Positions 11,903-22,028 of a DNA stretch of 64,000 nucleotides are shown piece after piece. Under the pieces are notes generated by a model. That model saw only the letters and a program-made list of their open reading frames with translations, ran no database searches and had not been told where the DNA came from. The DNA is from Sphingobacteriaceae bacterium. Its GTDB lineage: Bacteria > Bacteroidota > Bacteroidia > B-17B0 > Aurantibacillaceae. Numbering within the stretch: the stretch's first letter is position 1; the number at the start of each line of letters is the position of its first letter. The position numbers and the translations under genes were made by a program. The DNA lies in the NCBI GenBank assembly GCA_002319075.1, contig NVQB01000001.1:992001-1056000 (forward strand), given 5' to 3'.

Positions 11903-12412
11903 TTACACTTTCATTTTAACGTTCTTCCAGGCCTTAATTTGCCAGTTGATTAATCCTGTACAGATGTGGTTATTGTCAGTATCGTAAACTTCAACAGGAA
12001 ATTCCCTGAAGACAGCTTCCGTCGTTTTTAAAGGATTCAAAATGTCATTCTGAATTTCCTCCTTTGTTATTTTGAATTTCACGTACACAGCTGTTTTTGC
12101 CTGGTAGTGATAAGTCATGTGAATATTCTTTAAAATTATGCGGTATTCTTTTGGAGAAAAATTTGCCAGCAAACTTAATCCGGAAACATATTCGCAAAGT
12201 GTGGCGAGAAGACAAGCATGAATGCCGCGAATGTGGTTTCGGTTGGCTTTAATGTTGCCGGCCATCATTGTTAATTCATTGTCACCAATCTTCGTAACAC
12301 GTATGTTATGGGGTTTATTAAAAGGAACAGTCCTCAATAAAATCCGATTCAACAGCCAAAGATAAAACTTTGAGTGCTTCGCTTTTTGGATCAATGAATT
12401 TAATTTGTCCAT
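11903..12412 (-). CDS. DUF4442 hotdog-fold protein (putative acyl thioesterase)
   Basis: 169 aa. A basic N-terminal helix precedes PFNKPHNIRVTKIGDNELTM, then NHIRGIHACLLATLCEYVSG (the conserved helix region of DUF4442) and the strand IILKNIHMTYHYQAKTAVYV. Its ATG overlaps the stop of the thioesterase-ACBP gene by one base (TAATG), so translation is coupled. It is only distantly similar to the next gene, so the two may form a heteromeric pair or have different chain preferences; this is inference. Confidence 0.75.
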   Translation of the reverse strand: MDKLNSLIQKAKHSKFYLWLLNRILLRTVPFNKPHNIRVTKIGDNELTMMAGNIKANRNHIRGIHACLLATLCEYVSGLSLLANFSPKEYRIILKNIHMTYHYQAKTAVYVKFKITKEEIQNDILNPLKTTEAVFREFPVEVYDTDNNHICTGLINWQIKAWKNVKMKV

Positions 12413-13152
12413 TATTTCTTGAATAAACCTTCTACATAATCCATGTATTTTTGTTGTGCTTCTTCCTTGCTCATGCCTTTCTTACCGTTCCAGGCATTAT
12501 ACTTAGCTGCGGCAACAAAATCAAACATACCGGGTTTATCAATATTTACATCTCCAATAGTTGCCTGTTTATTTAAAGCATACAGTTCCAACATAACTTC
12601 GTTATCTGGTTTTTCAGGAAGATCCATTACGCGTTTTTTTGCGTCTTCAAATTTTTGTTCTAAATCGCTCATTGTATTTTTATCTTTAGTAAGTTCAACT
12701 TTTTTTTCAGGAACTTCTTCCAAAACGAAGTCCGGACTTTTAGGAACATGTAGAAATGAATCGGCCCATTCCTGTGGAAGAGCGGTTAACTTTCTCCTCT
12801 CCATGTCTACCCAGGCCCCCTGAACGTTAACCTGCGCAGCTTTTACCCCATCACCTCTGAAAATTTCCTGGCTGAAAGACCAGCGGCTTCCATCCTTACG
12901 GCAATGCGTCATTACTACAGTAACCTTCACAGTGTCACTAGGTCTTATCTCACGCAGATAAATTAATTCCTCGCGAAATAAGATCGGACCGATTTTCAAT
13001 TTTTCAAGGAGACGGGCATCAAATCCCAAATTCTCCAGTACCTGTAACCTTGCTTGTGCAGCAAAATCGGCATAAGCAGAATGCCGCAAATGCATATTTG
13101 CATCAATCTGCGACCACATTACTTTTCCTTCGTAGAAAACGTTTTCCATCAA
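12412..13152 (-). CDS. Fusion of 4HBT acyl-CoA thioesterase and acyl-CoA-binding protein (ACBP)
   Basis: 246 aa. Residues 1-140 form a FadM/YbgC-like 4HBT hotdog (MWSQIDANMHLRHSAYADFA, with the usual Asp17 in the QID-N-H-H pattern). A charged linker (about 141-160) leads into an ACBP domain (161-246) with YALNKQATIGDVN and AAKYNAWNGKKGMSKEEAQQ, the Tyr/Lys residues that hold acyl-CoA. The domain starts with its own Met161 after an A-rich tract, so a free ACBP could also be made from the internal ATG at 12672. The protein may hydrolyse acyl-CoA presented by its own carrier domain. Fifth gene of the marR-fadN-fadA-fadE unit. Confidence 0.9.
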   Translation of the reverse strand: MMENVFYEGKVMWSQIDANMHLRHSAYADFAAQARLQVLENLGFDARLLEKLKIGPILFREELIYLREIRPSDTVKVTVVMTHCRKDGSRWSFSQEIFRGDGVKAAQVNVQGAWVDMERRKLTALPQEWADSFLHVPKSPDFVLEEVPEKKVELTKDKNTMSDLEQKFEDAKKRVMDLPEKPDNEVMLELYALNKQATIGDVNIDKPGMFDFVAAAKYNAWNGKKGMSKEEAQQKYMDYVEGLFKK

Positions 13153-13209: not shown

Positions 13210-15003
13210 TTAAAAGCAATATTTATTTTCAGCTATGATTTTTTGGGCAACAACCTGACGAGCATTTTTTGCATTGAAAGGCTCTTGTTTTGTATAACGT
13301 TTTAAACCGATCAACATCATACGTAGCTCATCCCCTTCGCCAAAACTATTTAAAGCCTCTTTGCCTTCTACCCAGATTTTATCACAAGCTGAATTGATGT
13401 AAGAACGTGCAATCGCGATCTGACCTTCGCAAGCCGCTTCACCTCTCATACTCACCAACTTTTCAACACGTAGTAATGTGGACTCCGCAACATAAACTTC
13501 AATTGCCATGTTAGCGATATTCATAATCACTTCCTGCTCTTTACTTAGTGTAGCCATTAATTTTTGAACAGCTCCACCTGCCACTAATAAAACAGCTTTT
13601 TTAAAATTGCTGATTAGTTTCTTCTCGTATGCAAATAAAGTTTCATCCGGTTCTGCAAACTCAGGAATGCCAACCAATTCAGCAGCCACTTTTTGTGCAG
13701 GTCCCATTAAATCTAATTCACCCTTCATAGCACGTTTTAAGATCATATCTACAATTAACATGCGGTTGATCTCGTTTGTACCCTCAAAGATGCGGTTGAT
13801 GCGGGAATCGCGGTAGATACGATCCATCGGACCTTCTGCACTGTAACCCATCCCACCATAAATCTGTACCCCTTCGTCCGAAACATAATCCAACGTTTCT
13901 GAGCCATGTACTTTTAGGATAGCGGCCTCTACGGCGAATTGCTCAATCCCTTTTAATTTTGCTTTTCCTTCTTCCATACCACCTTCAATTAAAGCGTGGA
14001 TGGCATCTTCAATATTCTGAGAACAACGGTAGGTTGCACTTTCTGATGCAAAAATCCGAATGGCTTGTTCAGCTAATTTGTAGCGAATAGCTCCGTATTT
14101 AGAAATTGGTCTTTCAAACTGAATACGTTCGTTAGCGTAGTTTACCGATTGTGTTACGGTTCCTTTGCTTCCGCCAATTGCTGCTCCCGCTAATTTAATA
14201 CGTCCGATGTTTAAAATATTTACAGCGATCTTAAACCCATTTTCACGTTCTGATAATAAATTTTCAACCGGAACTTTACACTCATTAAAAAATACCTGAC
14301 GTGTAGAACTTCCTTTTATCCCCATTTTATGTTCTTCAGGATTTAATGAAATTCCCCCGAAAGATTTCTCAACGATAAAGGCAGACAAATTTTTATCATC
14401 ACCAATTTTAGCGAACACAGTAAAAATATCCGCGAAGCCACCGTTAGTGATCCACATTTTTTGCCCGTTTAAAACATAATGTTTTCCGTCAGCGGTTAAT
14501 GTTGCTGTCGTTCGTCCACTGTTTGCGTCAGATCCGCTTTGTGGTTCTGTTAAACAATAACAAGCTTTCCATTCGCCCGTTGCTAATTTCGGAATGTATT
14601 TTTTCTTTTGTGCCTCATTGCCATAATATAAAATTGGCAAAGTTCCAATTCCAGTGTGCGCCGATAAAGCTACTGCGAAAGAATGACCCGCGCCTAAAAC
14701 TTCCGTAGTTAACATAGAAGTCACGAAGTCGAAACCTAAGCCACCCAGATCTTCTGGAACAGAAGTGCCCAATAATCCAAGCGCTCCGGCTTTTTCCAAC
14801 AAAGAAACCATCAATCCTTCTTCCTGGTTGTCAATGCGATCAAGAATTGGATTTATTTCCTGCGCGATAAAGTCTTCACAGGTTTTTTTCATCATTAATT
14901 GTTCTTCAGTCCATTGTTCTGGAATGAAAATATCTTGTGCCAACGTTTCCTTAATAAGAAATTCTCCGCCTTTGGTTTTCACCGTTGTTGCTGTTGTTGC
15001 CAT
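13210..15003 (-). CDS. fadE: Acyl-CoA dehydrogenase, long/very-long-chain type
   Basis: 597 aa, the length of Bacillus FadE/VLCAD-type enzymes rather than the 380-aa short forms. It has the N-terminal helical domain, the FAD/acyl-CoA motifs CYCLTEPQSGSDA (about 149-160) and MWITNGGFADIFTVFA, and the catalytic base Glu407 in IFEGTNEINR. An extra C-terminal helical domain of about 170 residues follows. It oxidises acyl-CoA to trans-2-enoyl-CoA, passing electrons to ETF. It sits 30 bases after fadA in the order fadN-fadA-fadE, as in Bacillus subtilis. Confidence 0.95.
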   Translation of the reverse strand: MATTATTVKTKGGEFLIKETLAQDIFIPEQWTEEQLMMKKTCEDFIAQEINPILDRIDNQEEGLMVSLLEKAGALGLLGTSVPEDLGGLGFDFVTSMLTTEVLGAGHSFAVALSAHTGIGTLPILYYGNEAQKKKYIPKLATGEWKACYCLTEPQSGSDANSGRTTATLTADGKHYVLNGQKMWITNGGFADIFTVFAKIGDDKNLSAFIVEKSFGGISLNPEEHKMGIKGSSTRQVFFNECKVPVENLLSERENGFKIAVNILNIGRIKLAGAAIGGSKGTVTQSVNYANERIQFERPISKYGAIRYKLAEQAIRIFASESATYRCSQNIEDAIHALIEGGMEEGKAKLKGIEQFAVEAAILKVHGSETLDYVSDEGVQIYGGMGYSAEGPMDRIYRDSRINRIFEGTNEINRMLIVDMILKRAMKGELDLMGPAQKVAAELVGIPEFAEPDETLFAYEKKLISNFKKAVLLVAGGAVQKLMATLSKEQEVIMNIANMAIEVYVAESTLLRVEKLVSMRGEAACEGQIAIARSYINSACDKIWVEGKEALNSFGEGDELRMMLIGLKRYTKQEPFNAKNARQVVAQKIIAENKYCF

Positions 15004-15033: not shown

Positions 15034-16209
15034 TTATAATAATTCAAATACCCCTGCTGCGCCGTGACCCGTGCCAATACACATTGTTACAACGCCATAT
15101 TTTTTATTCTGGCGACGCATCTCTCCAAAAAGCTGCACGGATAACTTCGCGCCACTGCATCCCAGAGGATGACCTAATGAAATTGCTCCACCATTTACAT
15201 TCACTTTACTTTCATCTAATTCCAATTTTCTAACAACCGCTAAAGACTGAGATGCAAAAGCTTCGTTTAACTCGAATAAATCAATGTCTTTCATTTTTAA
15301 ACCCGCTTGTTCAACAGCTTTGGGAATAGCGAAGATGGGTCCTATTCCCATAATACGAGGCGGAACTCCAGCAGTTGCGTGAGACACTAAGCGAGCAATG
15401 GGCGTTAAATTATGTTCTTTCATAAATCTTTCGCTTACTACTAAAACAAAAGCGGCTCCATCACTTGTTTGCGAAGAGTTACCCGCCGTTACGCTCCCAC
15501 CGTTTGCAAACACAGGCTTTAATTTTGCTAATGCTTCCACAGAAGTATCACCGCGTGGACCTTCATCCGTATCTACTATAAAATCTTTTACTTTCTTTTT
15601 TCCGTTCTCGTCAAGGTAAGTCTCGCTTACTTTCACCGGAACAATCTCCTCTTTAAACTTTCCTGCTTTGATGGCTGCTATAGCTTTTTGATGTGACTTG
15701 TAAGAAAAAGCATCCTGGTCTTCACGAGAAACATTAAATTCTTTGGCCACTGCCTCGGCCGTAAGACCCATATTCCAGTACCAGTCAGCATGTTCTTTTG
15801 CGATGGCCGGATTTGGAACTACTCTCCATCCACCCATTGGGATTAAACTCATACTCTCTACACCACCGGCAATTACGCAATCCGCATAACCGGCTGCGAT
15901 TTTTGCAGAAGCCAGTGCGATAGTTTCTAAACCGGATGCGCAATAACGGTTCACCGTCATACCTGAAACTTTATCGGTGTTTAAAGAAAGAAGCGAAATA
16001 ATTCTTCCCACGTTTAAACCTTGTTCTGCTTCAGGCATTGCGTTACCTACCATCAAATCATCCACACGGGCGTGATCTACCTGCGGAACAGAGGCCATTA
16101 AATGTTTTATAACGTCCGATGCTAAATCATCAGGACGTGTAAAGCGGAATCCACCACGTGTGGCTTTTCCGACTGCACTTCTAAAACCTGCTACAATATA
16201 TGCGTTCAT
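15034..16209 (-). CDS. fadA: Acetyl-CoA C-acyltransferase (3-ketoacyl-CoA thiolase)
   Basis: 391 aa, standard thiolase length. The acyl-accepting Cys90 lies in TVNRYCASGLETIA; the later motifs NEAFASQSLAV, GHPLGCSGAKL and MCIGTGHGAAG carry the catalytic His and second Cys. It cleaves 3-ketoacyl-CoA to acetyl-CoA and a shortened acyl-CoA. It follows fadN by 21 bases and precedes fadE by 30, so it is the middle gene of the beta-oxidation core. Confidence 0.96.
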   Translation of the reverse strand: MNAYIVAGFRSAVGKATRGGFRFTRPDDLASDVIKHLMASVPQVDHARVDDLMVGNAMPEAEQGLNVGRIISLLSLNTDKVSGMTVNRYCASGLETIALASAKIAAGYADCVIAGGVESMSLIPMGGWRVVPNPAIAKEHADWYWNMGLTAEAVAKEFNVSREDQDAFSYKSHQKAIAAIKAGKFKEEIVPVKVSETYLDENGKKKVKDFIVDTDEGPRGDTSVEALAKLKPVFANGGSVTAGNSSQTSDGAAFVLVVSERFMKEHNLTPIARLVSHATAGVPPRIMGIGPIFAIPKAVEQAGLKMKDIDLFELNEAFASQSLAVVRKLELDESKVNVNGGAISLGHPLGCSGAKLSVQLFGEMRRQNKKYGVVTMCIGTGHGAAGVFELL

Positions 16210-16230: not shown

Positions 16231-18636
16231 TTAGTTTCTTAATACTTTTCCGCCGTTTATTATGCTGTGTAAACGTTCCATAGTTTTACGCTCGGTACAC
16301 AACTGCACAAATGCTTCACGCTCCAGATCAAGCAAATATTGCTCTGAGACCATAGTTGGCTGAGACAAATCTCCCCCAGCGATTACATAACCTAATTTGT
16401 TTGAAATTTTCAGATCATGTTCGCTCATATAATTACCACTGTATAAAGAGTTGGCCCCAACGTATACAAGTCCTAATGCAGTATTACCTAAAACCCGAAT
16501 ATCTTTGCGTGGTGTAGGTTTGGTGTAGCCTTCTTCAGCCATCAGCAAACATTCTGCTTTTGCTTCTGTTAACTGACGTGCTTTTGACATCACAACTTTA
16601 TCAATGCCCTTGCGCAAAATTCCCAAATCAAAAGCTTCGTAAGCAGAAGTAGATACTTTTGCCTGGCCAATGGTCAGGAATTTTTCTCGGAAAATATTTA
16701 ATTCGATATCACCTTCGTGAAGTGAATCTGCCAATCGTACAGCAAACTCTTTTGTACCGCCACCGCCAGGAATAACCCCTACTCCAAATTCAACAAGACC
16801 AATATAGGTTTCAGCGTGTGCTACAACTTTATCTGCGTGCAGGCAAATTTCGCAACCTCCTCCTAAGGTGAGGTTATGAGGCGCAACAACCACGGGTATA
16901 GAAGAGTAACGAATTCTCATCGTCGTATTCTGGAAAGTTTTCACCGCCATGTTTAATTCGTCCCACTCTTGCTCTGCCGCCATCATAAAGATCATCCCGA
17001 CGTTTGCTCCCGCCGAGAAATTCGCTCCTTCATTACTGATCACTAATCCTTTATAATCTTTTTCAGCGATATCAATTGCTTTATTGATTCCAGCTAAAAC
17101 TTCACCACCAATGGTATTCATCTTAGTATGGAATTCACAATTTAAAATACCATCGCCCAGATCGGTAATGGTTACACCACTGTTTTTCCAAACGGTATTT
17201 GTCTCGCGAATTGTATCCAATGAAATAAATGCTTCGGTGCCAGGAATTACTTTGTAAGACTTCGAGGCCACATCATAAAATTCTTTTTTACCATTCTCAA
17301 TTTTATAGAAAGATTTATTTCCCGCTTTTAAGAAATCATAAACCCAGGCAGCCGGTTTATTATTTGAAGCTTCCATCAGCTTAACTGCTGCTTCCACTCC
17401 AATGGCGTCCCAGTATTCAAACGGTCCTAAGTCCCAGCCAAATCCAGCTTTAAGAGCATCGTCAATTCTATATAATTCATCCGCAATTTCAGGAATGCGG
17501 TTTGAAACGTATTGAAACAAGCCTGAGAAAGTTGCACGGTAAAATTCTCCCGCTTTATCTTTTCCAGAAACTAAAACTTTAACGCGTTCTTTTAAATTGT
17601 CAATCGGCTTGGTTAATTCTAATGTCGCAAATTTTACTTTTTGCGCCGTTTTGTATTCTAAGGTTTTTAAATCCAGGACAAGAATTTCTGTTTTCCCTTC
17701 TTTACTTTTTGTTTTTTTGTAGAAGCCTTGACCGGTTTTATCTCCCAGCCATTTATTCTCAGCCATTTTTTTCAGGTATTCCGGTAAGGCAAATAACTCA
17801 TTCGCTTCGTCGTTGGGAACTCCTTTTTTTAAACCGTTAGCTACATTAATCATGGTATCCAAACCAACAACGTCGCTGGTTCTGAAGGTTGCAGATTTCG
17901 GACGGCCCAATACCGGTCCTGTTAATTTGTCTACCTCTTCAATAGTCAAATCCATTTTCTCAACCAAATGAAGCAAAGACATAATGCCATAAACCCCAAC
18001 GCGGTTGGCTATGAAAGCAGGTGTATCTTTAGCAAGTACAGTTGTTTTGCCCAGAAACTTTTCACCGTATTCCATTAAAAACGAAATTACTTCCGGTTTT
18101 GTATGAGGAGTTGGAATGATCTCTAATAACTTTAAATAACGCGGAGGATTAAAAAAGTGAGTTCCGCAGAAATGATCTTTAAAATCTTCGCTGCGCCCCT
18201 CTGTCATTAAATGAATAGGAATTCCAGAAGTATTAGAAGTGATAAGAGTTCCCGGTGTACGGAATTTTTCTACCTGCTCATAAACTTTCTTTTTAATATC
18301 TAAATTTTCTACAACCACCTCAATTACCCAATCGTACTTAGCGATCTTCGACATATCATCGTCAAAATTTCCGGTGGAAATACGACTGGCAAATTCTTTT
18401 TTATAAATCGGAGAAGGATTAGATTTCAGGGCAAATTGCAAAGCTTCATTAACAATGCGATTGCGAACCGCTTTTGTGTCCAATGTTAAACCTTTTGCTT
18501 TCTCAGCATCGTTCGGTTCTTTTGGTACTATGTCCAGTAATAAAACTTCGCAGCCAATGTTGGCAAAATGACAGGCAATACGGCTGCCCATAACACCTGA
18601 GCCCAGTACCGCAACTTTTTGAATTAACCTCTTCAT
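16231..18636 (-). CDS. fadN: 3-hydroxyacyl-CoA dehydrogenase / enoyl-CoA hydratase bifunctional protein (FadN type)
   Basis: 801 aa. The N-terminal Rossmann domain (VAVLGSGVMGSRIACHFANI) and the 3HCDH C-domains (FFNPPRYLKLLEIIPT, KDTPAFIANRVG) come first. The crotonase domain is last (about 500-700), with LGGGCEICLHADK and GLVEFGVGVIPGGGGT keeping both catalytic Glu residues of active hydratases. This order is opposite to E. coli FadB and matches Bacillus FadN. It does the hydration and dehydrogenation steps. It follows marR by 12 bases. Confidence 0.95.
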   Translation of the reverse strand: MKRLIQKVAVLGSGVMGSRIACHFANIGCEVLLLDIVPKEPNDAEKAKGLTLDTKAVRNRIVNEALQFALKSNPSPIYKKEFASRISTGNFDDDMSKIAKYDWVIEVVVENLDIKKKVYEQVEKFRTPGTLITSNTSGIPIHLMTEGRSEDFKDHFCGTHFFNPPRYLKLLEIIPTPHTKPEVISFLMEYGEKFLGKTTVLAKDTPAFIANRVGVYGIMSLLHLVEKMDLTIEEVDKLTGPVLGRPKSATFRTSDVVGLDTMINVANGLKKGVPNDEANELFALPEYLKKMAENKWLGDKTGQGFYKKTKSKEGKTEILVLDLKTLEYKTAQKVKFATLELTKPIDNLKERVKVLVSGKDKAGEFYRATFSGLFQYVSNRIPEIADELYRIDDALKAGFGWDLGPFEYWDAIGVEAAVKLMEASNNKPAAWVYDFLKAGNKSFYKIENGKKEFYDVASKSYKVIPGTEAFISLDTIRETNTVWKNSGVTITDLGDGILNCEFHTKMNTIGGEVLAGINKAIDIAEKDYKGLVISNEGANFSAGANVGMIFMMAAEQEWDELNMAVKTFQNTTMRIRYSSIPVVVAPHNLTLGGGCEICLHADKVVAHAETYIGLVEFGVGVIPGGGGTKEFAVRLADSLHEGDIELNIFREKFLTIGQAKVSTSAYEAFDLGILRKGIDKVVMSKARQLTEAKAECLLMAEEGYTKPTPRKDIRVLGNTALGLVYVGANSLYSGNYMSEHDLKISNKLGYVIAGGDLSQPTMVSEQYLLDLEREAFVQLCTERKTMERLHSIINGGKVLRN

Positions 18637-18648
18637 ACTTTTTAAAAT

Positions 18649-19098
18649 TTAATTTTTAATTAGTTTACTTCTTTCTTCAGCTAATGCTGTAATCTCATCT
18701 AATGTTTTAAAAAACTCTTCAACGCGGTCTTTTCCTATTTTTACTTCCACCAGGTGATTAAAATTCCGCACCACATTCTTAGCAAGTTCTTTGGCCGATT
18801 TTCCTTTACTTGTGAGCATTATTTTTATTTTCCTTCCGTCTTCCTTATCAGGAATTCTCTGGATCAGCTTTTTCTTTTCCAGCGACAAAGTAATTCTTGA
18901 CAGAGAAGTACTCTCCATTCCCAACAGCGGCGCAATATCCGAACCGTAAGAACCTTCATGACTATCTATATTCAATAAAAAATGTCCCATCGCAATTGTC
19001 AGATCGTGTAATGAAGCTTCCGAATTATACATTCTGCTCACCACCTGCCACGAAGTTTTTAATTTAGAATCAATAGTCTCTGTGTGTTTTTTGCTCAT
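18649..19098 (-). CDS. MarR-family transcriptional regulator of the fad operon
   Basis: 149 aa. The winged-helix signature is visible: LLGMESTSLSRITLSLEKKKLIQRIPDKEDGRKI (recognition helix and wing), followed by a dimerisation helix. It heads the operon with fadN 12 bases downstream. A near-perfect palindrome lies between its -7 element and the upstream fadD gene, and the same box recurs before fadD/nitronate monooxygenase, so it probably represses itself and fatty-acid degradation, released by acyl-CoA or fatty acid. The ligand is inferred. Confidence 0.9.
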   Translation of the reverse strand: MSKKHTETIDSKLKTSWQVVSRMYNSEASLHDLTIAMGHFLLNIDSHEGSYGSDIAPLLGMESTSLSRITLSLEKKKLIQRIPDKEDGRKIKIMLTSKGKSAKELAKNVVRNFNHLVEVKIGKDRVEEFFKTLDEITALAEERSKLIKN

Positions 19099-19107
19099 AG
19101 TTTAACA

Positions 19108-19144
19108 CAAATATACACTTAATTGTATTATGCACGCATAACAT
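19108..19144 (-). promoter_or_regulatory. marR-fadNAE promoter with candidate MarR operator
   Basis: On the minus strand ATGTTATGCGTGCATAA (19128-19144) contains a 14-bp palindrome with one mismatch. It is followed 12 bases later by TATATTTG (19108-19115), a perfect TAnnTTTG -7 element. The marR ATG begins only nine bases after that element, so the mRNA would have almost no leader. The box is 16/17 identical to the one between fadD and the nitronate monooxygenase. Confidence 0.75.
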
Positions 19145-19146
19145 AA

Positions 19147-20943
19147 TTATAAATGTTCTAAATTTTTACTATCCTGTTTATAAATGCGATCGAATGCCTC
19201 TTTATTTGCAGTCATGATAATTTTCCGCTTTAAAGATAATTTTGGGGTCATCTCACCTTTTTCAACCGTCCACTCATGAGAAAGCAATTCTATCTTTTTA
19301 ATTTTTTCGTATTGAGCCAGATCTTTATTTACATTTTCAACCTCAATCATAATCCTGTTTTTAACCTGCTCATTTTTTACAATTTCTTCATTGCTTGTAA
19401 AAGGCACTTTGTGTTTCTCACACCAGCCTTTTAAGAAAGAGAATGAAGGCACGATAAAAGCGGCAGGGAATTTTTCGTTCTCCCCTATTACCATGGCTTG
19501 CTCTATAAACCGACTTCCTTTTAATTTATTTTCAGTAATCTGCGGTGTAATATATTTTCCGCCAGAGGTCTTAAACATTTCTTTTTTACGATCGGTTATT
19601 TTTAGAAATTTATTGTCAACCAATTCGCCAATGTCGCCCGTATGAAACCAGCCATCTTTATCGATAGCTTCGGCTGTTAAGTCGGGATGATTATAATAAC
19701 CCATCATCACATTTGGCCCCTTCACGCAAATCTCTCCGTCTTCTGAAAATTTTACCTGAACATTATCTATAACAGGACCAACAGTTCCAATCATAATATT
19801 TTCATCTGCGTAATTATTTACGGCAACTACCGGAGAAGTTTCTGTAAGACCATATCCTTCCAGGACTTTAATCTTTGCTGCATGAAAAACTCTGGCCAGT
19901 GGGAGTTGAAGTGCAGATCCTCCGGAAACTATTCCCACGATATTTCCACCAAGCGCTTCTCTCCATTTACTGAAAATAAGTTTGTTGGCAATACCTAATT
20001 GCCATTCATAAAAAGCGCCGTTCTGACCATGTTGCTTGTAGCGCAGCCCCAGGTTAAGCGCCCAGAAGAACAGTAATTTTTTCACACCTGTTAAAGCGTG
20101 CCCCGTATTCACAATCTTTTCGTAAACCTTCTCTAATAATCTCGGAACAGTTACAAAAATATGAGGCTTCACTTCTTTTAAGTTGTCGCCAATTTTTTCT
20201 AAACTCTCGGCGTAATACACCGACATACCGCGACTTATGTACAGGTAAGAAAGCATGCGTTCATAAACGTGATTTAAAGGAAGGAAACTTAAGGCTCTCC
20301 AATCACTTTGAAACGGACAAAGATCTTTACAGGCCAAAACATTACTCACAAAATTCTTGTGAGAAAGCATTACACCTTTAGGATTTCCTGTTGTACCCGA
20401 TGTATATATTAACGTAGCAAGATCTGTATTTTTGATGGAAGTTTTGATGGCTTCCAACTCATTGACATGGGGATTGTTTTTTCCAATTACCACCAAATCC
20501 TGTAAACATTTTACGCCTTCAATTTTTGAGAACGAAAAAATTTCTTTCACGTTCGATCCGCCAATACACGATTTTACTTTTTGATACATTTCATCGTTGG
20601 CAACGAAAAAATATTTTATATCGGCATCACCAATAATATGCTTTAGATCATGCTCACTGATAGTAGGATATAAAGGTGTATTAATACTTCCTGTTTGTGA
20701 ACAGGCATAATCTACAAAATTCCACTCGGGACGGTTATTGGAAATTAAACCAATTTTATCGCCTGGCTTTATACCAAGATCTAAAAAAGCATAACTCAGG
20801 GCATTCACAGTATCGATGTATTCCTGTGTACTGTATTTCCTCCATTCACCATTCTCTTTCGCTGCAAGAGCGTCGGGTTTTAACGGCATTTGTTTGAGGT
20901 GATGAAGCAGGTCGAAGAGACGAAAATTTTCAATTGAATCCAT
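19147..20943 (-). CDS. fadD: Long-chain fatty acid-CoA ligase (AMP-forming)
   Basis: 598 aa from the ATG of MDSIENFRLFDLLHH. An upstream in-frame ATG 12 codons earlier overlaps the promoter and is unlikely. It has the AMP-binding P-loop TLIYTSGTTGNPKGVMLSH, the A5 motif EGYGLTETSPVVA, GWFHTGDIG, and the hinge ITDRKKEMFKTSGGKYI. It activates imported fatty acids to acyl-CoA on the inner face of the membrane. Its promoter lies in the shared divergent region with a MarR-type box, so it is probably in the same regulon as fadNAE. Confidence 0.95.
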   Translation of the reverse strand: MDSIENFRLFDLLHHLKQMPLKPDALAAKENGEWRKYSTQEYIDTVNALSYAFLDLGIKPGDKIGLISNNRPEWNFVDYACSQTGSINTPLYPTISEHDLKHIIGDADIKYFFVANDEMYQKVKSCIGGSNVKEIFSFSKIEGVKCLQDLVVIGKNNPHVNELEAIKTSIKNTDLATLIYTSGTTGNPKGVMLSHKNFVSNVLACKDLCPFQSDWRALSFLPLNHVYERMLSYLYISRGMSVYYAESLEKIGDNLKEVKPHIFVTVPRLLEKVYEKIVNTGHALTGVKKLLFFWALNLGLRYKQHGQNGAFYEWQLGIANKLIFSKWREALGGNIVGIVSGGSALQLPLARVFHAAKIKVLEGYGLTETSPVVAVNNYADENIMIGTVGPVIDNVQVKFSEDGEICVKGPNVMMGYYNHPDLTAEAIDKDGWFHTGDIGELVDNKFLKITDRKKEMFKTSGGKYITPQITENKLKGSRFIEQAMVIGENEKFPAAFIVPSFSFLKGWCEKHKVPFTSNEEIVKNEQVKNRIMIEVENVNKDLAQYEKIKKIELLSHEWTVEKGEMTPKLSLKRKIIMTANKEAFDRIYKQDSKNLEHL

Positions 20944-20982
20944 AATGCGTTTTTTTTTAAGGATACTTTTAGGCTGCATAAA

Positions 20983-21015
20983 ATGTTATGCATGCATAAA
21001 AATAAAGTATATTTG
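20983..21015 (+). promoter_or_regulatory. Divergent fadD / nitronate monooxygenase promoter with candidate MarR operator
   Basis: ATGTTATGCATGCATAA (20983-20999) contains the perfect 14-bp palindrome TTATGCATGCATAA. Eight bases later comes TATATTTG (21008-21015), a TAnnTTTG -7 element pointing to the plus-strand gene, whose ATG is 23 bases further. A protein on the palindrome would cover the spacer of this promoter and lie about 43 bases upstream of the fadD start. Confidence 0.75.
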
Positions 21016-21038: not shown

Positions 21039-22028
21039 ATGAAGGATAATGTGTTAAATCGTTTATTAAAGATTGATTTCCCCGTTATTATGGCACCCAT
21101 GTTTTTGGTGAGCAACGTGGAAATGATGAAAGCAGGAATGCGCTCTGGCATCATGGCTACCTTTCCGACTCTAAACTACCGTAAAGAGGGCGAACTGGAA
21201 AAGGTACTGGACGAACTTAATGCTTATTGTAAACTTCATAATGGCAGTTACGGGGTTAACATTATTGTACAAAAATCAAATCCTTTGTCCATTAAACATA
21301 CAAAGATCTGTTTACAAAAACAAGTCCCCTTCTTTATTACTTCGTTAGGAAATCCTAAAGAAGTTATTGATGGAGCGCATGTTTATGGAGGAAAGGTTTT
21401 TTGCGATGTCACCAATCTGATTCATGCTAAGAAATGTGCAGATGCAGGCTGCGATGGCTTTATTGCTGTTGGACAAGGCGCCGGCGGACATGCAGGGCCA
21501 AATCCTTTGCAGGTATTAGTCCCTGCCCTGAAAGAGCATTTTCCGGGTATCCCGGTGATAGCGGCTGGCGGTATTACAAATGGCGCAGGACTGTTGTCGG
21601 TACAAGTGTTAGGTGCAAGCGGTGTTTCAATAGGAACACGCTTTATTGCCAGCACTGAAGCGGGAGTAAATGATAATTACAAAAACGCGATTGTTAAGTC
21701 CGGGATGGAAGATATTGTTATGACGACCAAATTATCGGGAACTCCCTGCGCTGTGATTAACAACGATGCTGCAAAGAAAATGGGCTACACGCAAAATTGG
21801 TTTGAAAAACTACTCAGCAATAACGCACAGACAAAAAAATGGTTTAAGATGCTGGTACAACTAAGGGGCATGCAAAAACTGGAGAAATCGGTGCTGCCAA
21901 ATAATTATCTGAGTCTGTGGACCGCGGGTAAATCTTCAGAGCTGGTGCATGATATTATTTCTTGTGAGGAAATTGTGGCGAGGATAAAGAGAGAGTATTT
22001 GCAAAGCCTTGCGGAGATAAGCGCGTAA
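21039..22028 (+). CDS. Nitronate monooxygenase / NPD-family flavoprotein
   Basis: 329 aa. TIM-barrel FMN-binding features of the 2-nitropropane dioxygenase family are visible: FPVIMAPMFLVSN, the AVGQGAGGHAGP loop with its His, VIAAGGITNGAG, and GVSIGTRFIAS (phosphate binding). The family includes nitronate monooxygenases and FabK-like enoyl reductases; FabK-type function cannot be excluded. It shares a bidirectional promoter and candidate MarR operator with fadD, which points to a role in acyl metabolism rather than nitronate defence. A weak hairpin without a T tract lies 40 bases downstream. Confidence 0.88.
   Translation: MKDNVLNRLLKIDFPVIMAPMFLVSNVEMMKAGMRSGIMATFPTLNYRKEGELEKVLDELNAYCKLHNGSYGVNIIVQKSNPLSIKHTKICLQKQVPFFITSLGNPKEVIDGAHVYGGKVFCDVTNLIHAKKCADAGCDGFIAVGQGAGGHAGPNPLQVLVPALKEHFPGIPVIAAGGITNGAGLLSVQVLGASGVSIGTRFIASTEAGVNDNYKNAIVKSGMEDIVMTTKLSGTPCAVINNDAAKKMGYTQNWFEKLLSNNAQTKKWFKMLVQLRGMQKLEKSVLPNNYLSLWTAGKSSELVHDIISCEEIVARIKREYLQSLAEISA

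Follow-up and report, generated by a model that had tools for sequence, protein, structure and literature searches.

FadR, the repressor of fatty acid degradation in Bacillus subtilis, is a TetR-family protein. This role of FadR in Bacillus has been described (PMC6529636), and Thermus thermophilus is reported to run the same pathway by a TetR-family FadR with a palindromic operator before fatty acid degradation and electron transfer flavoprotein (ETF) genes (PMC5597230). Within the MarR family, FabT of Streptococcus pneumoniae is described as a regulator of fatty acid metabolism with acyl-acyl carrier protein (acyl-ACP) as co-repressor (PMC5487221), and CouR of Rhodococcus jostii as a p-coumaroyl-coenzyme A (CoA)-responsive repressor of catabolic genes, which is released by the CoA thioester and whose R36 and R38 contact both DNA and CoA phosphates (PMC4737184). 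Here, we analyze a stretch of 64,000 nucleotides (the window) from the Sphingobacteriaceae bacterium assembly GCA_002319075.1, in which a gene for a MarR-family regulator (marR) lies within a cluster of fatty acid beta-oxidation (fad) genes and shares a palindromic box with the spacer between fadD and a divergent gene of the nitronate monooxygenase (NMO) family. We consider it very likely that a self-repressing MarR controls marR-fadN-fadA-fadE and fadD/NMO via this box and is released by acyl-CoA. A literature search by titles and abstract openings, which covered few subscription journals, found no description of a MarR/fad regulon or of the box in Bacteroidota.

Box 1 (ATGTTATGCGTGCATAA) lies on the minus strand at 19144-19128, between fadD and marR, and box 2 (ATGTTATGCATGCATAA) on the plus strand at 20983-20999, in the divergent fadD/NMO spacer. 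Both fit the 17-bp pattern ATGTTATGC(A/G)TGCATAA with one base setting the copies apart, as the first-pass annotation had claimed, and they are, again in line with that annotation, confined to these two places, being the sole matches to TTATGCATGCATAA at up to one mismatch in the window (two more appear at 3 mismatches). As judged by sequence comparison, the conserved part of the box is the palindrome TATGC-NN-GCATA, here at 19129-19140 and 20987-20998. Perfect cores of this kind occur in the window in these two boxes only, with runners-up at 8 of 10 positions, and base composition predicts 0.07 of them per 64 kb. The upstream regions of the DUF2147 and fadL genes in the window carry no box (best scores of 6 and 5 of 10, respectively). 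In the closest genome (G001), a perfect box is located 105 bp before the DUF2147 gene (L209:2001-2014).

The box is conserved well beyond the window. Among public Bacteroidota genomes we collected marR loci with flanks for the best 80 of 347 relatives, 79 of them scorable (L079 comes without upstream sequence); the close loci are often near relatives, and the locus counts are not independent. A MarR relative is present in 26 of 60 genomes (source included), at E <= 6e-21 in 19 of these. Within 130 bp upstream of marR, 68 of the 79 loci carry a perfect core, compared with 1.4% of random windows from the same loci, and four more score 9 of 10 (1.9% of random windows score at least 9). The core persists with distance, at 36 of 41 loci with 63-88% identity and 32 of 38 with 38-48%. 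An unguided count of inverted 5-mers ranks TATGC with a 2-nucleotide spacer first, at 68 of 79 loci, and the flanks of these 68 sites widen the palindrome towards TTATGC-NN-GCATAATA.

The second position is conserved as well, since 16 of the 23 loci with adjacent divergent NMO and fadD genes carry a perfect core in the spacer. Altogether, 1.22 Mb of related loci contain 85 perfect cores, 68 before marR, 16 in the NMO/fadD spacer, and a single one elsewhere, 42 bp in front of fadE (L122); base composition predicts a total of 1.4. Conserved boxes in orthologous spacers, the test that had been set beforehand, were thus found at both positions. Single cores do arise by chance, as illustrated by the 5.65-Mb source genome, where base composition predicts about 6.5 perfect cores and 12 are present (8 within open reading frames [ORFs]), but the excess over expectation both in the window and in the related loci leaves a chance repeat of the two boxes with practically no probability, and their conservation at marR and at the NMO/fadD spacer rules it out.

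A copy of the -7 promoter element TATATTTG adjoins each box. The copy facing marR (minus strand, 19115-19108) begins 12 nucleotides past the 14-mer, and the one facing NMO (plus strand, 21008-21015) 8 nucleotides past it, so that the proposed pairing of box and -7 element stands, with unequal spacing. TAnnTT(T/C)G is found within 30 bp past the box in 55 of the 68 marR loci and in 1.5% of random stretches, and the alignment of NMO/fadD spacers holds mostly 1.1-2.0 bits per column across the NMO element, with two columns at 0.5. The pairing does not extend to fadD. The sole minus-strand TAnnTTTG in this spacer, TAATTTTG at 21031-21024 (0.5-1.2 bits per column), is a weak candidate that lies beyond the box. 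Direct control of NMO by the second box fits this layout, unlike that of fadD, which is a candidate only and rests on the shared-spacer position, since no TAnnTTTG lies between box and fadD. If TAATTTTG is the fadD promoter, the box would be part of the fadD leader, where MarR would act as a roadblock. Across the marR upstream regions L046-L125, the distance from core to -7 element falls into two classes, of approximately 10-13 and 15-17 bp, about half a helical turn apart, with the longer spacing mostly accompanied by a TT box centre.

The regulator itself is a 149-amino-acid protein (18649-19098, minus strand) that the Pfam profile PF01047 assigns to the MarR family (E value of 7.1e-09, 35.9 bits against a cut-off of 24.6). 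At an E value of 0.001, Pfam yields only MarR, MarR_2, HTH_27, and SarA/Rot, and none of the TetR-type families expected of a FadR. Its AlphaFold monomer model (predicted local distance difference test score of 92.6) adopts the winged-helix MarR fold, with near full-length matches to MepR bound to DNA (4lln; Z of 16.0, root mean square deviation [rmsd] of 1.9 over 138 residues) and SlyA bound to DNA (3q5f; Z of 15.8, rmsd of 2.0 over 140). Many MarR-family proteins match with Z values close together, and CouR is tied among them (5cyv; Z of 15.0, rmsd of 2.6, 137 aligned). CouR differs in acting on another pathway and shares 20% identity in the structural alignment, the comparison being one of fold. 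Judging from the model, the shared MarR fold does not reveal the ligand. Profile matches of the regulator also include the PDB chain 6jbx, “Fatty acid biosynthesis transcriptional regulator,” at an E value of 2.9e-07, which we take to be FabT.

In the mechanism that we propose, a MarR dimer would bind TATGC-NN-GCATA, which lies a short distance before the -7 element, and would thereby block RNA polymerase both at the marR promoter (marR-fadN-fadA-fadE) and in the fadD/NMO spacer. Uptake and activation of fatty acids would supply a ligand for MarR, either a long-chain acyl-CoA or an intermediate of beta-oxidation, and the ligand-bound protein would leave the DNA, switching on the pathway. Because the regulon is catabolic and the regulator gene self-regulated, a repressor released by a metabolite of the pathway, most likely long-chain acyl-CoA, is the simplest reading. 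MarR might instead be an activator or act in both ways. In most cases, 10-17 bp separate the end of the core from the -7 element downstream of it, in the two spacing classes, because of which the overlap of MarR with RNA polymerase contacts would vary; however, the box covers a stretch occupied by the polymerase, and we regard an activating or dual role as very improbable.

The identity of the ligand is a separate matter. Operator and MarR may be right with another ligand in place of a long-chain acyl-CoA, namely acyl-ACP, a free fatty acid, or a short CoA intermediate, and FabT, as a MarR with an acyl-ACP co-repressor, offers a described example (PMC5487221). FabT belongs to the same family, but it controls synthesis and not breakdown, with acyl-ACP strengthening repression. 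The catabolic nature of the regulon, the position of the spacer box beside fadD, the gene for the acyl-CoA-making enzyme, and the precedent of CouR for CoA thioesters (PMC4737184) argue for acyl-CoA, and a different ligand appears possible, if rather unlikely.

We further compared genomes with and without the regulator. In 18 marR-bearing genomes, KTATGCNNGCATAM occurs 52 times and the reversed pattern 13 times, whereas the respective counts are 20 and 32 in 23 genomes of the window genus without a close marR (23 of 29 used, excluding G004, which is 93% complete, and five under 90%). The difference in site counts between the two sets gives p = 1.3e-5, a value that serves as a guide only, the genomes being related. 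The 23 marR-less genomes hold fadD only as distant paralogues (45-51% identity) and no close fadN (best matches of about 33%), and none of the 24 regions in front of these fadD paralogues scores 9 or 10 of 10. The module is wholly present or absent, which supports the link between box and module.

These counts also bear on the idea that the box is the operator of another regulator, e.g., a TetR- or GntR-type FadR encoded elsewhere, with MarR merely one of its targets. One box, in a Cytophagaceae genome (L279), does have a TetR-type-looking gene (judged by eye) next to it, and the Thermus pathway is reported to be run by a TetR-type FadR (PMC5597230). However, no other gene in the sampled loci accompanies the box as closely as marR, boxes are not in excess in those genomes of the genus that have no close marR, and palindrome and self-regulated position fit a MarR dimer, all of which makes a different regulator quite unlikely.

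Beyond the marR/fadD cluster, we read the surroundings of 42 of the 52 KTATGCNNGCATAM sites in the first 18 genomes, the other 10 being marR or NMO/fadD boxes. Intergenic boxes occur before fadE-like genes (L191, L200), etfB (L193, L197), a thioesterase gene (L195, overlapping the called first codons), and a gene for a 2,4-dienoyl-CoA reductase-like SDR (L202, below the NCBIfam cut-off), as well as before genes for an Fe-S protein (L213), DUF2147 (L209), and a TonB receptor (L196). Six more intergenic boxes (L188, L190, L198, L203, L204, and L211) have no clear fatty acid link. Of the sites inside ORFs, two lie within 12 bp of the first codon. Recurrent in-gene boxes (L148/L149 and L150/L181/L186) were rejected as operators and attributed to coding conservation, because the genes that contain them are homologous and coding (judged by eye, for a response regulator and an exonuclease-like protein).

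A wider regulon appears in 11 more marR-bearing genomes, which were reached through named loci, include Muricauda, Siphonobacter, Rudanella, Fibrisoma, Emticicia, Flavobacterium sp. SUN052, and Zhouia, and together hold 96 KTATGCNNGCATAM sites against 14 for the reversed pattern (Zhouia holds one site only). Gene surroundings were read for 52 of these 96 sites, in six of the eleven genomes, and control sites were scored for ORF or intergenic position only. Of the 52, 48 are intergenic, compared with 5 of 14 control sites from all eleven genomes; among the four scored inside ORFs is the Rudanella marR box (L292), misjudged by the mechanical ORF rule. The 63 flanking proteins include, by Pfam, 8 acyl-CoA dehydrogenases, 5 MarR, 4 Thiolase_N (one KAS III-type), 3 enoyl-CoA hydratases, 3 ETF, 2 fatty acid hydroxylases, and 2 DUF4442 proteins. 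Sorted by hand, 20 sites are next to a core gene of beta-oxidation (acyl-CoA dehydrogenase at 10, thiolase at 3, hydratase at 3, and etfB at 4, one of the last identified through the etfB search described below), 5 adjoin marR, 12 adjoin looser candidates (Fe-S, cysteine-rich, thioesterase or DUF4442, KAS III-type, fatty acid hydroxylase, and SCP2 genes), and 15 adjoin none of these.

A perfect core within 200 bp upstream of etfB was found in 11 of 27 marR-bearing genomes, the set that this search covered, with 2 more scoring 9; the etfB query had been chosen for having a box. Several beta-oxidation operons are thus preceded by a shared candidate operator, as a fatty acid degradation regulon entails. 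The recurrence at the boxes of fadNAE, acyl-CoA ligase, etfB, and dienoyl-CoA reductase-like SDR genes resembles the FadR system of B. subtilis, from which this one differs in its MarR-family regulator. Thermus FadR is similar in its palindrome before fatty acid degradation and etf genes, a likeness drawn without motif comparison, and differs in being of the TetR family. The boxes that adjoin two fatty acid hydroxylase genes and an SCP2 protein gene (L280:1177-1950, L299:2019-3311, and L308:1631-1939) hint at a regulon that may reach past beta-oxidation in some lineages.

The source genome itself presents a different picture. It contains two perfect 14-mers and three at one mismatch, and its only non-ORF cores besides the two fad boxes are at 2721026 and 5256387. 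The perfect 14-mer outside the window, at 2721025 (L132:1501), follows closely on a LytTR-like response regulator gene and precedes an 85-amino-acid ORF by approximately 155 bp. In G001, the two KTATGCNNGCATAM sites are those at marR and DUF2147, and because this genome shows no second fad-free site we treat 2721026 as probably due to chance. A wider regulon in the source genome was therefore rejected, with 8 of 12 cores within ORFs and the two window boxes as the clear sites. The first-pass annotation had called the regulon compact, which holds for the source genome, where only these two boxes clearly belong, and fails for other Bacteroidia, where the regulon is wider.

Several observations weigh against control of the pathway by MarR through this box. 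Eleven of the 79 marR loci (L050, L060, L065, L066, L072, L089, L090, L113, L116, L117, and L123) have no perfect core, although four of them reach 9 of 10. Five of these (L050, L060, L065, L066, and L072) belong to the close group of loci (63-88% identity) and keep the NMO/fadD spacer box, a point in favor of the proposed control, and no fadN lies within reach in L089 and L090. The NMO/fadD spacer is without a box in 7 of 23 loci (L064, L067, L070, L073, and L075-L077; best scores of 6-7 of 10). All seven have a perfect marR box with a TT centre, and their fadD ends 267-3423 bp before marR, compared with 18-76 bp in the 16 loci with a spacer box. In the window, the TAnnTTTG scan of the spacer reveals no clear fadD promoter between the gene and the box.

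The genome comparison has similar weak points. The marR-less genomes also have no close fad genes, and co-occurrence alone cannot separate regulator from targets. ORFs contain 20 of the 42 sites examined across the first 18 genomes, about chance level by the 13 reversed-pattern sites. In the six genomes read later, the 15 unfitting sites have no fatty acid-linked gene even on a loose reading and include CarboxypepD/TonB-type proteins, a GDSL lipase, a response regulator, and unknowns. Finally, the etfB box is limited to those 11 of 27 marR-bearing genomes and to none of the seven of the window genus (source included). With these points considered, the sequence evidence supports the MarR-controlled fatty acid degradation regulon proposed in the first-pass annotation, and MarR control of beta-oxidation that is widespread in Bacteroidia appears to be the best reading.

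By Pfam, the minus-strand run of genes at this locus comprises fadD, marR, a fadN-like gene, and genes for a thiolase, an acyl-CoA dehydrogenase, a thioesterase-like/acyl-CoA-binding fusion, and DUF4442, with DUF2147 and a FadL-type porin farther along. The fadN-like gene (16231-18636, minus strand) encodes a fused 3-hydroxyacyl-CoA dehydrogenase/enoyl-CoA hydratase; fadN is found downstream of marR in 67 of the 80 loci, directly after it in 64, and some of the other 13 end at a contig edge. It is followed on the same strand by a fadA-like thiolase gene (15034-16209; Thiolase_N/C) and a fadE-like acyl-CoA dehydrogenase gene (13210-15003), whose product exceeds the cut-off of the NCBIfam FadE “Bacil” model (NF058590), a further likeness to the B. 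subtilis system. The fadD-like long-chain acyl-CoA synthetase gene (19147-20979, minus strand; Pfam AMP-binding) has a second ATG at 20943 as a possible start, and its best NCBIfam model, fatty-acid--CoA ligase, stays below cut-off. The fusion protein in this cluster (12412-13152) has 246 amino acids, with a thioesterase-like 4HBT_2 domain joined to an ACBP domain.

On the plus strand, divergent from fadD, lies the gene for the NMO-family flavoprotein (21039-22028; PF03060, E value of 7.5e-33). Its sole NCBIfam match at 1e-10 is the enoyl-ACP reductase FabK, below the cut-off of that model, and the protein may function in fatty acid metabolism rather than nitronate oxidation. A Muricauda box sits between a thioesterase gene and an NMO-family gene (L262:935-1912), and boxes thus accompany NMO-family genes in two distant lineages.

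A self-regulated MarR with a catabolic regulon is a known type; what is notable here is that it would take the role of FadR in much of a class. We think it moderately probable that one MarR clade with a near-invariant operator is the ancestral, class-wide controller of fatty acid oxidation in Bacteroidia, a counterpart of FadR drawn from a different family, whose regulon ranges from two promoters here to at least about a dozen sites in certain Cytophagales, adding the ETF chain, TonB receptors, fatty acid hydroxylases, and the NMO/FabK-like flavoprotein. If true, this flavoprotein would be an unrecognized part of fatty acid metabolism, and box-bearing genes of unclear role, i.e., those for the flavoprotein itself, DUF4442, DUF2147, and the Fe-S protein, would be tied to lipid metabolism. 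The regulator might also provide an acyl-CoA sensor for engineering. Ultimately, for fatty acid breakdown in a large bacterial class, the analysis names an operator, a regulator, and a set of targets that can be put to the test.
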